The notes under the pieces were generated by a model. That model saw only the letters and a list, made by a program, of their open reading frames with translations, was not told the origin of the DNA and did no database searches. The translations under genes and the position numbers were made by a program. Of a stretch of DNA of 64,000 bases, positions 59,836 to 64,000 are shown one piece after another; position 1 is the stretch's first letter, and every line of letters begins with the position of its first letter. Origin of the DNA: an uncultured Bacteroidia bacterium (GTDB lineage Bacteria > Bacteroidota > Bacteroidia > Bacteroidales > Prolixibacteraceae); the NCBI GenBank assembly GCA_903897145.1, contig CAIUAN010000016.1, positions 1-64,000 of the forward strand. The letters are read 5' to 3'.

Positions 59836-60582
59836 ATGGAGTCAATTTGGAAGGAGTATTTTGAGGTCAAATCATATAGTGTAGATTTTCAGCAGCAGCT
59901 GAAGCCTTCGGCACTGATGCAGTTTTTTCAGGAGGTGGCGACTAATCATGCCGCTAGTCTCGGCGCTGGTTATGATCCCTTGATGGAGAAGGGGCTTTTT
60001 TGGGCCCTTTCGCGGCTGAAAGTTGAAATCACACGAATGCCCCAGATCGATGAGAAGATTTGCATCGAAACCTGGCCGTGTGGTTATGAAGGGCTGTTTT
60101 TTAGACGTGATTTTATCATTTACGATCAGGAGCAAAACGTCCTTATTCGAGGGATCTCTGCCTGGCTGCTCTTGGCTGTTAATACCCTTCGGCCACAACG
60201 CCCAAATGTGTTAACGATAAATATTCCAACCAATGAAGGTAAACGGGCGCTTGCCGACTTCCCCGATCGGCTTTTGACACAAACCGTTCGAACTGCCTAT
60301 TTTAAAACCGTTGGATACAATGAGATCGACCTGAATTTACATGTGAACAATACCCGCTATGTCGATTGGGCGACTGACTGTTTTCTATTAGACCAGTACC
60401 AGAATTTTAATTTAATTGGATTCGCACTTGAATTTTTAGCGGAAACACATTGGGGTGATGAAATTGAGATGCGCCTTGGCGATGAATCCGTTTGTGTTGA
60501 TATAGAGGCCGTTGATAGAACATCACAGATTGCTCTATTTAAAGCTCAATTAAAATGGGAACCTAAAGTAGCGCAGGAGTAG
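59836..60582 (+). CDS. Acyl-ACP thioesterase (FatA/FatB type)
   Basis: The 248-residue protein is a double hot-dog fold. The first half has YSVDFQQQLKPSALMQFFQE. The active-site segment DLNLHVNNTRYVDW lies near 166-179, with Asn and His of the FatA pattern. It releases fatty acids from acyl carrier protein. The tail end lies 66 bases before the convergent M67 gene, with a large inverted repeat between them. Confidence 0.88.
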   Translation: MESIWKEYFEVKSYSVDFQQQLKPSALMQFFQEVATNHAASLGAGYDPLMEKGLFWALSRLKVEITRMPQIDEKICIETWPCGYEGLFFRRDFIIYDQEQNVLIRGISAWLLLAVNTLRPQRPNVLTINIPTNEGKRALADFPDRLLTQTVRTAYFKTVGYNEIDLNLHVNNTRYVDWATDCFLLDQYQNFNLIGFALEFLAETHWGDEIEMRLGDESVCVDIEAVDRTSQIALFKAQLKWEPKVAQE

Positions 60583-60602: not shown

Positions 60603-60654
60603 CTTTAAACTAAGTTTAGTACTTCTCAATCTGTAGAGCAAACTCAGTTTAAAG
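60603..60654. terminator. Bidirectional hairpin between convergent operons
   Basis: CTTTAAACTAAGTTT (60603-60617) and AAACTCAGTTTAAAG (60640-60654) pair over 14 of 15 positions with a 22-base loop. It overlaps the last codons of the M67 gene. There is no T-run on the plus side, so termination may be Rho-assisted or it may serve as 3'-end protection. Confidence 0.6.
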
Positions 60655-61047
60655 GGTAATAATGATCTCTTCAGCTTCCACTTCTCCATTCCGGATACGA
60701 AACGATTTAACAGCTGGTATTTCAGCATGAAGCGAAACAATGAGGTAGCTAATATCTGGATCATAAGCCAGTCGGATATCCTCTACGGAAGGTCGAGCAG
60801 GTGATGCTGGATGACTATGGTAATTCGCTAATAAAACTTGGCCTGCATTACGAACTTCTCTCGCAACTTTGAACTGCTCAGCAGGATCGAAGGAAAAGTG
60901 CTCTGGACTGTGATCAATATTGGTCATGATATGCTGAGTGGTGATCACCCGATCGATGCCCGACAGATAGCCGCACACCTCTTCTGGCAAGCCAGATTTA
61001 GCGTGAATGATGAGCTGTTCGATAAGTTGTTCCGAGATATATAGCAT
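60649..61047 (-). CDS. JAMM/MPN+ (M67) metalloprotease of a sulfur-carrier system
   Basis: The 132-residue protein has the complete JAMM zinc signature: Glu22/23 in LPEEVCG, His77 and His79 in NYHSHP, Ser87 and Asp90 in RPSVED. Such small stand-alone forms (Mec+, HcyD) clip C-terminal residues from ThiS/MoaD-like carriers. The carrier in this operon ends GGGSSC, which needs such trimming. It is the last gene of the operon, six bases after tusA. Confidence 0.85.
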   Translation of the reverse strand: MLYISEQLIEQLIIHAKSGLPEEVCGYLSGIDRVITTQHIMTNIDHSPEHFSFDPAEQFKVAREVRNAGQVLLANYHSHPASPARPSVEDIRLAYDPDISYLIVSLHAEIPAVKSFRIRNGEVEAEEIIITL

Positions 61048-61053
61048 AGTCTA

Positions 61054-61278
61054 CTATTTTTCAATGATCACCTTGTGTACCTGTCCTTCAACATGTGAAA
61101 TATCAAGGACTTTAAAGCCTTGCTCTCGAGCACTCTTAGGGACATTTTGAAGTGGCTCACCCTCCATGAGTAAGACCTCCAAAATATCACCCGATTGGAG
61201 TTTCGATAGTTGTATCTTGGTCTTTACGAAAGTCATTGGACAATGCTCTGCGGTAATATCTAATTTGACTGTGGTCAT
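61054..61278 (-). CDS. TusA-family sulfurtransferase
   Basis: The 74-residue protein has the TusA fold with catalytic Cys13 in HCPMTFVKTK. The family CPxP is here CPMT, with Thr in place of the second Pro. It ends with an EKxxx-type strand. It carries persulfide sulfur to a partner. It sits between dsrE and the M67 gene and may hand sulfur to the carrier protein. Confidence 0.85.
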   Translation of the reverse strand: MTTVKLDITAEHCPMTFVKTKIQLSKLQSGDILEVLLMEGEPLQNVPKSAREQGFKVLDISHVEGQVHKVIIEK

Positions 61279-61293
61279 AGCTTCAGCTGAATA

Positions 61294-61806
61294 TTATATG
61301 AATAATGTTCTTCCCCCTTCGGAGATCTCCAGGAATGTCGCGACGCCAAGAACATCCTTCACCTCGTGAATGAAGTCGCTCTTTTGAAGGCCGAGAATAT
61401 GCATGGCCATTTCGCAAGCATACATGTTAACCTCCAACACCTTTGCGGCCTCCACAAGCTCCTCAAGGGTCGCTACGTTTTTCTTTCGCATGAGATAGCG
61501 GAAGATCTTAGGACTTAATCCTAGGAAGTTCAAGCGGCTCACGGGTGCACTTCGCAGTCCGCCCATGAAAAAGCCGAATATCTTCGGCAAGAAACCTTTG
61601 CCTACAAAGGCTCTACCTTGTTTTTGCTTGATCGCATCAAGACCCCAGAAGGTGAAAAATATATGCACTTCATAACCGATCGCGGCAGCACCTGTGGCCA
61701 GGGTAAAGGTGGCGACCAGCTTGTCGAAATCACCACTAAAACTGATGATTGATAGCTTTTTAGGCTCCTTCACAGGAAGGGATGTTAGGATATCTGAAAT
61801 TTCCAT
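61294..61806 (-). CDS. DsrE/DsrF-like sulfur relay protein
   Basis: The 170-residue protein has the alpha/beta DsrE-like (DrsE2) fold: LSIISFSGDFDKLVATF near 19-35, YEVHIFFTFWGL, and a conserved Cys in NMYACEMAMHILG (about 130). The region FMGGLRSAPVSRLN is typical of the larger DsrE-like group. It likely stores or passes persulfide. It lies five bases after the E1-like gene and 15 bases before tusA. Confidence 0.82.
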   Translation of the reverse strand: MEISDILTSLPVKEPKKLSIISFSGDFDKLVATFTLATGAAAIGYEVHIFFTFWGLDAIKQKQGRAFVGKGFLPKIFGFFMGGLRSAPVSRLNFLGLSPKIFRYLMRKKNVATLEELVEAAKVLEVNMYACEMAMHILGLQKSDFIHEVKDVLGVATFLEISEGGRTLFI

Positions 61807-61811
61807 AGCTC

Positions 61812-62618
61812 TTATTTTTGTTTTATTTCACAAGTTGCTTGTTCGTAGTCCACTAATTCTGTCAGTGTCGGATGGGTACCGCAAACCTGGCACGAAGTAT
61901 GCTGTTTTACTTTGATAGTTCTGAATTCCATTGTTTTGGCGTTGAAGGTTAAGAGTCTGTTGGTTAACAGATCACCTACGCCAGTGAGATATTTGAGCGC
62001 CTCGGCCGCCTGAATCGTTCCTAGCATACCGGCAATGGCACCTAATACGCCTGCTTGCGAACAAGTTGGTACCGCATTCGGTGGAGGAGGAGCGTGGAAC
62101 ACACAGCGATAACAGGCCGTGCCTGGCACTACCGTGATCGTTTGTCCATCGAAACGCAAGATACCCCCATGAGAGAAAGGTTTTTTCGCCATCACACAAG
62201 CATCGTTAATCAGAAATTTAACCGGAAAATTATCGGTCCCATCAACGACAAAATCATATTCTTTAATGATCTCCAGCGCATTACTAGCCGTTAAAAGCTG
62301 ATGATAAGTGATCACCTTCACATCTGGATTTAACTGATTGATCTTCTCTTTGGCCGACAAGACCTTTGATTTATGAACGTCTGGTGTAAAATGTATGATC
62401 TGTCGTTGTAGATTTGAAAGATCCACCACGTCGCCATCGATAATTCCTATCGTACCCACGCCAGCTGCTGCTAAATAGAGCGCTACTGGCGCCCCAAGAC
62501 CGCCAGCACCAATGATCAAGACCTTCCCATTGCTGATTTTTTCCTGACCTTCGACACCCACATCTTGCAATAAAATATGGCGGCTATAGCGCTGAATCTG
62601 ATCTTCCGTAAAATCCAT
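61812..62618 (-). CDS. ThiF/HesA/MoeB-family E1-like enzyme
   Basis: The 268-residue protein has the adenylation fold: nucleotide loop GAGGLGAP near 36-43, DGDVVDLSNLQRQI near 62-75 and VVDGTDNF. The zinc cysteines are CYRC and CQVC. It would activate the carrier's C-terminal Gly as acyl-adenylate and help form the thiocarboxylate. In Wolinella the equivalent is HcyF. It is three bases after metY. It lacks a rhodanese domain, so sulfur may come from the DsrE/TusA pair. Confidence 0.9.
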   Translation of the reverse strand: MDFTEDQIQRYSRHILLQDVGVEGQEKISNGKVLIIGAGGLGAPVALYLAAAGVGTIGIIDGDVVDLSNLQRQIIHFTPDVHKSKVLSAKEKINQLNPDVKVITYHQLLTASNALEIIKEYDFVVDGTDNFPVKFLINDACVMAKKPFSHGGILRFDGQTITVVPGTACYRCVFHAPPPPNAVPTCSQAGVLGAIAGMLGTIQAAEALKYLTGVGDLLTNRLLTFNAKTMEFRTIKVKQHTSCQVCGTHPTLTELVDYEQATCEIKQK

Positions 62619-62621
62619 TGG

Positions 62622-63866
62622 TTACTTTAATTTTGTGATTGCTTGTGCGATATCATCTTTTAAATCTTCAAGATCCTCTATGCCTAAGGAGAGTCTTAAC
62701 ATCGTGTCGTAGACCTGAAGACTTTCGCGTTTTTGCTGATCAAAATCGCAATAAATGGTCGAGGCCGGATGCAGGATAAGTGTTTTATTGTCGTAGACAT
62801 TGGTCGCACGACGTATCAACTGAAGATTGTTCATAAAGTCAAAAGCACTCTCCCGCGAATCAAAATCGATAGTCAGCATCGCACCTGGAAAGTTTCCAAA
62901 TTGCTTTGCGCTGATCTGATCATAAGGTGATCCTTTGATACCAGGGTAGTTCACGCATTTGATTTGTGGAATTGTTAACAGATATGTGGCCAAATCACGA
63001 CAGTTGTTAGCCGCTTTTTCGAAGCGCATCTGAAGTGTTTCGAGTCCTAAACTTTGAAGGTAGGCTGCAAATGGAGATAAGCAGGCACCCAGATTTCGGA
63101 ATATCTCTCTTCTTAATTTGTAGTTAAATGCAAAAGGACCATATTTTTTTGATAATGGAGCTAGCTTTTTTGATTTACTCCAGTCGAAGGTGCCATAATC
63201 AATGATTAATCCGCCCACACTGGTTCCACCACCCGAGATACATTTAGTGCTTGAGATAATTTCAAGATCAACACCAAAAGACTTGGCACAAAAGGTGTTG
63301 GGTGGGGTAAGGGTTGAATCGGCAATAAGTGGTATATGGCCGTTGTGAGCGGTCTCGGCAAGTGCTGCTAGATCTGCAACTTCAAGCTGAGGATTGGTTA
63401 TAGTCTCCACAAATATTCCGATGGTCTGACTGTCGATATTCGCTTTTACCTCTTCCATATTGGTGAGATCACAGAACCGAACCTCAATGCCAAAATCGCG
63501 TATGGTTGATTCGAAAAAAATATAGGTGTTCCCAAACAAGTATTTTGAGGCAATTAGGTTGCTGCCAGATGAGGCCAGTAAGAGTATGGTGTTCGACACG
63601 GCTGCCATGCCAGAACTTAAGGCTGTCACATTAAGAGCGCCGGTGATCTCTTTTATTCGTAATTCGAAATTCTCTACTGTTGGATTTGAGATCCTTGAGT
63701 AGGAGTGGACTGGAAGCCTCCCTTGAAAGGCAAGTTCCATCTGTTCAGCTGACTCAAAATCAAATGCAGCGTTACTATAGATAGGTTGTTGCAAAGCGCG
63801 ATTGGCATCTTCTCTGGCAAATGGAGTGTGGATAACCTTTGTCGCGAATCCCTTAGGTTTTAGCAT
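62622..63866 (-). CDS. metY: MetY-type O-acetylhomoserine sulfhydrylase
   Basis: The 414-residue Cys/Met-metabolism PLP enzyme has the lysine in ISSTKCISGGGTSVGG (about 206-221) and the early YSRISNPTVENFE. It closely resembles O-acetylhomoserine sulfhydrylases rather than cystathionine synthases. In known systems, it uses sulfide or a carrier thiocarboxylate to make homocysteine. Its ATG overlaps the stop of the carrier gene, so both are translated together. Cystathionine gamma-synthase is a less likely alternative. Confidence 0.83.
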   Translation of the reverse strand: MLKPKGFATKVIHTPFAREDANRALQQPIYSNAAFDFESAEQMELAFQGRLPVHSYSRISNPTVENFELRIKEITGALNVTALSSGMAAVSNTILLLASSGSNLIASKYLFGNTYIFFESTIRDFGIEVRFCDLTNMEEVKANIDSQTIGIFVETITNPQLEVADLAALAETAHNGHIPLIADSTLTPPNTFCAKSFGVDLEIISSTKCISGGGTSVGGLIIDYGTFDWSKSKKLAPLSKKYGPFAFNYKLRREIFRNLGACLSPFAAYLQSLGLETLQMRFEKAANNCRDLATYLLTIPQIKCVNYPGIKGSPYDQISAKQFGNFPGAMLTIDFDSRESAFDFMNNLQLIRRATNVYDNKTLILHPASTIYCDFDQQKRESLQVYDTMLRLSLGIEDLEDLKDDIAQAITKLK

Positions 63867-64000
63867 GAACTTCCTCCCCCCATAAAGAATAGAAAGTCGA
63901 CTTCGTCGTTTGGTTGAATCAGTGTCGACTCGAAGTTCTCGCGGCTCACAAATTCGCCATTTACTTGGATGGATACCATCTCAGGCTGCTCTACCTTGTT
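63860..64000 (-). CDS. ThiS/MoaD-like sulfur carrier with encoded C-terminal tail (partial)
   Basis: The last 46 codons of a small beta-grasp protein are visible; the start lies beyond the window. Segments QVNGEFVSRENF and LIQPNDEVDFLFFMGGG are typical of ThiS/MoaD. Unlike ThiS, the chain continues past the diglycine as GGGSSC, then TAA. The terminal residues would block adenylation and must be removed, presumably by the M67 protease of the same operon. The stop overlaps metY by seven bases. Confidence 0.82.
   Translation of the reverse strand, partial: NKVEQPEMVSIQVNGEFVSRENFESTLIQPNDEVDFLFFMGGGSSC

Follow-up and report, generated by a model that had tools for sequence, protein, structure and literature searches.

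A six-gene operon that may link a DsrE-TusA sulfur relay to a ubiquitin-like carrier in homocysteine synthesis

The window analyzed here, the first 64,000 nucleotides of contig CAIUAN010000016.1 (C16) from an uncultured bacterium of the Prolixibacteraceae (genome G000; 2.8 Mb, 97% complete), ends in a compact operon of six genes encoding a ubiquitin-like sulfur carrier, the sulfhydrylase MetY, an E1-like adenylating enzyme, a DsrE-like protein, TusA, and a JAMM peptidase. On balance, we favor the reading that this operon makes homocysteine by way of the carrier, which would be loaded through the E1-like enzyme with persulfide sulfur from DsrE and TusA, MetY and the JAMM peptidase then completing the route. 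That sulfur is relayed into the carrier is likely, because DsrE comes with its own type of TusA, because TusA is joined to a reductase in related operons, and because the clade of the window's operon has DsrE-TusA only. The ultimate source of the sulfur may be sulfide made by CysJI, cysteine persulfide, or sulfane sulfur from outside.

The six genes lie on the reverse strand and are transcribed in the order carrier, MetY, E1, DsrE, TusA, and JAMM. The carrier is an HcyS/ThiS-like protein of 71 amino acids (63860-64075, with 63860..64000 within the window; 8861-9076 of L002, the 20-kb locus around the operon; Pfam ThiS, 46 bits). Its gene starts at C16:64075, 75 bases outside the window, and only the later part falls inside. 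It is followed by an O-acetylhomoserine sulfhydrylase of 414 amino acids (MetY; 62622..63866; Pfam Cys_Met_Meta_PP, 315 bits), assigned to the carrier-using Wolinella type by its match to structure 3ri6 and its place in the tree, and by an E1-like adenylating enzyme of the HcyF/MoeB/ThiF family (268 amino acids; 61812..62618; Pfam ThiF, 279 bits). Next come a DsrE2-like protein (170 amino acids; 61294..61806; Pfam DrsE_2, 136 bits), a TusA of the type found beside DsrE (74 amino acids; 61054..61278; motif EHCPMTFVKTK; Pfam TusA, 70 bits), and an HcyD-like JAMM/JAB peptidase (132 amino acids; 60649..61047; Pfam Prok-JAB, 78 bits). The Pfam families of all six proteins score above curated cut-offs. 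The preliminary description had claimed tight packing of the six genes, and the open reading frames, the Pfam names, and the intergenic gaps (in order of transcription, -7, 3, 5, 15, and 6 bases) agree with it.

This packing is not chance, since the identical six-gene order recurs in 18 operons, including that of the window; 16 are in our main census and two come from another class of the phylum, and two more DsrE operons are interrupted by contig ends. The census rests on a scan in which each species was represented by a single genome, searched with an alignment of nine MetY rows. Of the 329 relatives obtained, the 80 most like the MetY of the window were retained, so that the census counts should not be read as natural frequencies. 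With these 80, the window, one more locus from its genus, and 30 loci from its family, 112 loci were classified, an operon being defined as a carrier and/or an E1 beside MetY. By this definition 61 loci hold an operon, 50 have MetY without a carrier or E1 in the DNA covered (11 with short flanks), and one, L058, has a split MetY frame and was left uncalled. DsrE is found in 18 of the 61 operons. Two further DsrE operons from the other class (L250 and L251) bring the total to 20 operons; these come from 19 genomes, because L083 and L084 belong to one metagenome-assembled genome. With DsrE at the same place in all of these, the gene set is not peculiar to the window's genome, a doubt that the preliminary description had raised about its own proposal. 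The named carriers of DsrE operons are all labeled Bacteroidota or Chlorobiota (the "Chlorobiota" label of L142 is doubtful), and DsrE is absent from the census operons of Omnitrophota, Planctomycetota, Thermodesulfobacteriota, Spirochaetota, and others. In a survey of 60 genomes of the family (MetY subfamily threshold of at least 390 bits), 38 have a carrier-type MetY, 10 have the carrier and E1 beside it, and 7 of those 10 also have DsrE. On the MetY tree, the distribution of DsrE needs six changes, at least four of them forced by well-supported branches; the E1 tree also needs six, of which at least two are forced. This history may reflect an early gain followed by losses, or repeated transfer.

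The nature of the core is best read from MetY, which matches the Wolinella succinogenes structure 3ri6 at 447 bits, a 166-bit lead over the next PDB chain (281 bits). The likeness to the HcyS-MetY-HcyF-HcyD route, already pointed out from the letters of the window, is thereby borne out. The carrier ends in FMGGG-SSC, that is, glycines and a tail, and the end of its gene overlaps the start of MetY (ATGCTAA); the structures nearest to it are 2k5p and 3cwi. The cysteine at the end of the tail (SSC or SRC) was considered as a functional residue and rejected, as its codon stems from the ATGCTAA overlap and other branches do without it. For the JAMM peptidase, the nearest structure is 2kks (126 bits), and residues E23, H77, H79, and D90, which we take to be the JAMM metal-site motif, are conserved at 1.00 in a 48-row alignment. 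Only one alignment column, P244, separates the MetY copies of operons from stand-alone copies. Lone carrier-type MetY copies (for example, those of L140, L102, L138, and L143) fall mostly into two clades nested among operon copies, which is a possible return to free sulfide; the carrier-using MetY subfamily thus also includes copies with no carrier seen nearby (50 of the 112 loci).

The carrier also passes the NCBI ThiS model (59.9 bits against a cut-off of 37.45), a name that could hide its role, and the E1 is similar to MoeB and to the SAMP-activating enzyme, although it scores below most of those NCBI cut-offs. From these matches one could argue that MetY is incidental and that its neighbors (carrier, E1, and JAMM) constitute a system for thiamine, for molybdenum cofactor, or for ubiquitin-like protein modification. 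We regard this as very improbable. The carrier is the sole ThiS-family match (PF02597) and the E1 the sole ThiF-family match (PF00899) in the genome, in searches that were positive in 11 and 12 of 14 control genomes, respectively. No ThiG was matched in the genome by a search positive in all 14 controls (MoaE and other cofactor genes were outside that search). We conclude that the core does not belong to thiamine synthesis and that the carrier has MetY as its sole evident client. The carrier, moreover, adjoins or is fused to MetY in 58 of the 61 operons. Three Omnitrophota loci encode the two as a single frame (L091:9788-11224, L092:1130-2569, and L095:9764-11224), with GGG-SGL or GGG-NGL at the junction. 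Such a fusion resembles a ubiquitin precursor, and freeing the glycine end would need a cut, which fits the role proposed for JAMM.

DsrE and TusA appear to form a dedicated pair, a view supported by their sequences. The TusA adjacent to DsrE reads CPMTFV in 19 of 19 cases (17 of 17 in the main census, plus L250 and L251). Of 40 further TusA domains in these operons, 39 read CPxN and one is not matched by the pattern; these 40 comprise 38 from the census (above 35 bits; 37 CPxN) and the upstream TusA of L250 and L251 (both with N), and they exclude three matches that are weak, at 20-22 bits (L091, L092, and L095). In all 19 operons that can be read past DsrE, the next genes are a free TusA and JAMM, in this order; the twentieth (L072) is cut inside DsrE. 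The conserved cysteine of the TusA CP motif is C13. DsrE has a single conserved cysteine, C131 (YACEM motif), which is present in all complete alignment rows; the protein scores 76.7 bits against the NCBI DsrE2 model NF047629, below the cut-off of 210, and its nearest solved structure is 2qs7 (SSO1126, a DsrE2B of Sulfolobus). Its own structure model is middling, with a predicted local distance difference test (pLDDT) score of 69.8.

It might be asked whether the pair, although co-transcribed with the core, serves another acceptor, such as iron-sulfur assembly, tRNA thiolation, or persulfide detoxification. Both families do serve other routes elsewhere (for example, PMC4175335). Such a role is improbable here, given that in a sample of 198 genomes of the phylum all three DsrE matches of at least 200 bits, the window's included, lie inside this operon. 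The three span two classes; of six weaker matches examined in the same sample, none is near the operon.

The usual neighbor of the operon elsewhere is a siroheme reductase of the sulfite/nitrite reductase family, which adjoins 29 of the 43 operons that lack DsrE (five of these matches are short or JAMM-fused forms of 58-78 bits). It is nearest to the NirA family among NCBI models, under the cut-off, and we infer that it acts on sulfite from the PAPS reductase, sulfate adenylylation, and siroheme genes that stand near many operons. In 21 of the 43 it carries TusA as its last domain (confirmed with Pfam on three fusions), which links TusA to sulfur delivery. TusA also occurs in these operons as a free protein, fused to JAMM (L133 and L148), or free beside a JAMM-reductase fusion (L107), and it was not seen in nine of the 43, the majority of which are truncated at contig ends. 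A reductase adjoins eight of the 20 DsrE operons; in another 11, the window's among them, none is seen in the DNA covered (upstream DNA is almost absent for L078 and L087), and the remaining one is cut. The 12 operons most like that of the window form one clade, in which no reductase is seen beside any operon and DsrE-TusA is present; in L002, a search for the reductase gave no match. A fusion-type reductase is found in 7 of the 60 family genomes, and only free TusA was matched in the window's genome. Among ten operon genomes, the five without a fusion-type reductase all have DsrE, and two of the five with one have it as well. That DsrE does not act as a strict substitute is shown by genome G045, where it occurs along with a CysI-like gene and, elsewhere, a reductase of the fusion type.

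Several side observations concern the same neighborhoods. In L226:9322-11697 and L227:8987-11359, both on the reverse strand, the siroheme reductase ends in a rhodanese-like domain and not in TusA, which looks like a swap of sulfur-acceptor domains; the ending is confirmed by Pfam in L226 and assigned by sequence likeness in L227, and no carrier operon was found beside MetY in either genome. JAMM is fused to a siroheme reductase domain in L107:5359-6630 (with a 4Fe-4S domain), L144:12030-13313, L098:12241-13620, and L118:7386-9447, and a free TusA is next in three of the four. An Rrf2-type regulator stands near 27 of 63 operon loci from many lineages (for example, L148:1014-1637; Pfam was run on one), three of them of the DsrE type. 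At the window's own locus, a convergent acyl-ACP thioesterase gene lies beyond JAMM (59836-60582), and an Rfam scan of the 20 kb around the operon gave no match.

Does the window's organism need a relay at all? The idea that it lacks a sulfite reductase and hence depends on DsrE was ruled out by its NIR_SIR gene, which is CysI beside CysJ. Both exceed their NCBI cut-offs (CysJ, 686 against 668 bits; CysI, 779 against 757) and lie on a contig other than the operon's. The genome also has two PAPS_reduct-family proteins and a CysK with 62% identity to the CysK beside a related operon. In addition, the operon's contig encodes, at a distance of 17 kb, an ordinary MetY with an acetyl-type MetA after it (L071:6660-8982; C16:81159-83481), and two routes to homocysteine thus seem to be present in the genome. 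In the genus (18 genomes), NIR_SIR is present in 10 of 11 genomes with carrier-type MetY versus 2 of 7 without (p 0.013, uncorrected for kinship); in genomes at least 90% complete, with any contamination, the figures are 9 of 10 and 0 of 3. Sulfide is thus at hand and may be the ultimate sulfur source. In Wolinella, bisulfide attacks the carrier adenylate. It is conceivable that the same plain chemistry operates here with bisulfide from CysJI, that DsrE-TusA only scavenges, stores, or tunes sulfur, and that the pathway supplements the ordinary MetY with another means of making homocysteine, perhaps one sparing of sulfide. The reductases above their cut-offs and the co-occurrence in the genus speak for this alternative. 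We nevertheless hold it to be unlikely, because the CPMTFV type of TusA follows every readable DsrE, the pair sits between E1 and JAMM, and the clade whose operons show no adjoining reductase is one that has DsrE-TusA.

Other observations also weigh against the loading of the carrier by DsrE and TusA. The genome's own sulfide supply and second MetY do so, as does the tracking of sulfite reductase by carrier-type MetY in the genus, which is expected if sulfide is the source. Forty-three of the 61 operons have no DsrE. One operon (L082) has a CPMTFV-type TusA without DsrE, probably through loss, its close relatives L083, L084, and L224 all carrying DsrE. Two operons (L080 and L111) have no TusA although they are not cut by contig ends; the genome of the former (G013) has a reductase-TusA fusion on another contig. 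Finally, the DsrE2B of Metallosphaera cuprina did not react in vitro with any of six sulfur compounds (PMC4175335), and the nearest solved relative of the window's DsrE is likewise a DsrE2B. The preliminary description had proposed a persulfide relay feeding the thiocarboxylate instead of free sulfide. The relay remains likely in light of the recurring DsrE-TusA pair, whereas the words "instead of" find no support in a genome with CysJI, CysK, and an ordinary MetY and MetA.

How the E1 could receive sulfur is suggested by its cysteines. C169, C172, C243, and C246 are invariant and presumably form a zinc site; R10, R13, R72, K85, and D129 are also invariant and are taken by us as the nucleotide site. 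C186, likewise invariant, is in our assumption at the position of the sulfur-accepting C184 of ThiF. A further cysteine, C263, is invariant in 58 of 58 sequences and sits in a disordered C-terminal tail (pLDDT 88.8 for the whole model, below 50 for residues 263-268). C263 may be special to this family, although E1-rhodanese proteins have a cysteine in the same linker. By Pfam, the E1 of the window has no rhodanese domain.

In the favored reading, JAMM would trim the carrier tail back to the glycines, and E1 would adenylate the carrier with ATP. Sulfur would come as cysteine persulfide, TusA being charged through its partner DsrE and passing the sulfur on to E1, with C186 and the mobile C263 as candidate acceptors, and the carrier would become a thiocarboxylate. 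MetY would then couple this thiocarboxylate to O-acetylhomoserine, giving carrier-homocysteine, from which JAMM would cut off the carrier to free homocysteine. We infer the loading by DsrE-TusA from the operons described above; trimming, adenylation, thiocarboxylate formation, coupling, and release would follow the Wolinella precedent. A bolder version, possible though in our opinion doubtful, is that a persulfide line of the DsrE2B-like protein and TusA charges the carrier, that the mobile C-terminal cysteine of E1 replaces a rhodanese domain, and that this line stands in for the reductase-to-fused-TusA line of relatives, with sulfur staying protein-bound all the way to methionine and never becoming free sulfide. 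If the loading by DsrE-TusA is real, two subjects that have largely been investigated separately, DsrE/TusA trafficking and ubiquitin-like thiocarboxylate carriers, are joined in one short operon that can be reconstituted from its six genes. A natural comparison set consists of relatives that have a reductase-TusA fusion, DsrE-TusA, both of these, or MetY alone, and it makes the sulfur loading of the carrier directly testable.

The closest known system is the HcyS-HcyF-HcyD-MetY protein-thiocarboxylate methionine route of Wolinella succinogenes, reportedly described by Krishnamoorthy and Begley in 2011. Its sulfur source is a protein thiocarboxylate, according to papers that cite it (PMC5764234, PMC6271081). 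The window's operon shares with it a ThiS-like carrier with residues after the glycines, an E1, a JAMM peptidase, and a MetY of the 3ri6 type; unlike it, the window's operon has DsrE with its own type of TusA and no adjoining sulfite reductase, and an ordinary MetY is also present in the genome. Operons of this general kind were in print even earlier. In row 4e of Iyer, Burroughs and Aravind (2006), ThiS/MoaD, JAB, E1, SirA, O-acetylhomoserine sulfhydrylase, and sulfate-assimilation genes are listed together for Wolinella and others (PMC1779556). The gene kinds are the same, including SirA (= TusA) and an E1 without a rhodanese domain, whereas sulfite reductase and sulfate-assimilation genes do not adjoin the operon of the window. 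The word DsrE does not occur in the main text of that paper, and we found no description of DsrE in carrier-E1-JAMM-sulfhydrylase operons in the literature searched, a coverage that leaves out most subscription journals. The preliminary description knew of no system with this exact set. That holds for DsrE with its own type of TusA; TusA alone is no addition, being, as SirA, already a regular member of the published operons (PMC1779556). As far as searched, the novelty is thus limited to DsrE with its own TusA type, carrier-E1-JAB-SirA-sulfhydrylase operons dating from 2006 and the pathway from 2011. A dsrE-type gene beside tusA is itself familiar from sulfur oxidizers, where rhd-tusA-dsrE2 and dsrE3A-dsrE2B-tusA modules occur and serve sulfur trafficking (PMC4175335). 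The pair of the window differs from those modules in being joined to a carrier/E1/MetY operon and not to Dsr/Hdr oxidation genes, in the one conserved cysteine of its DsrE, and in the CPMT motif of its TusA.

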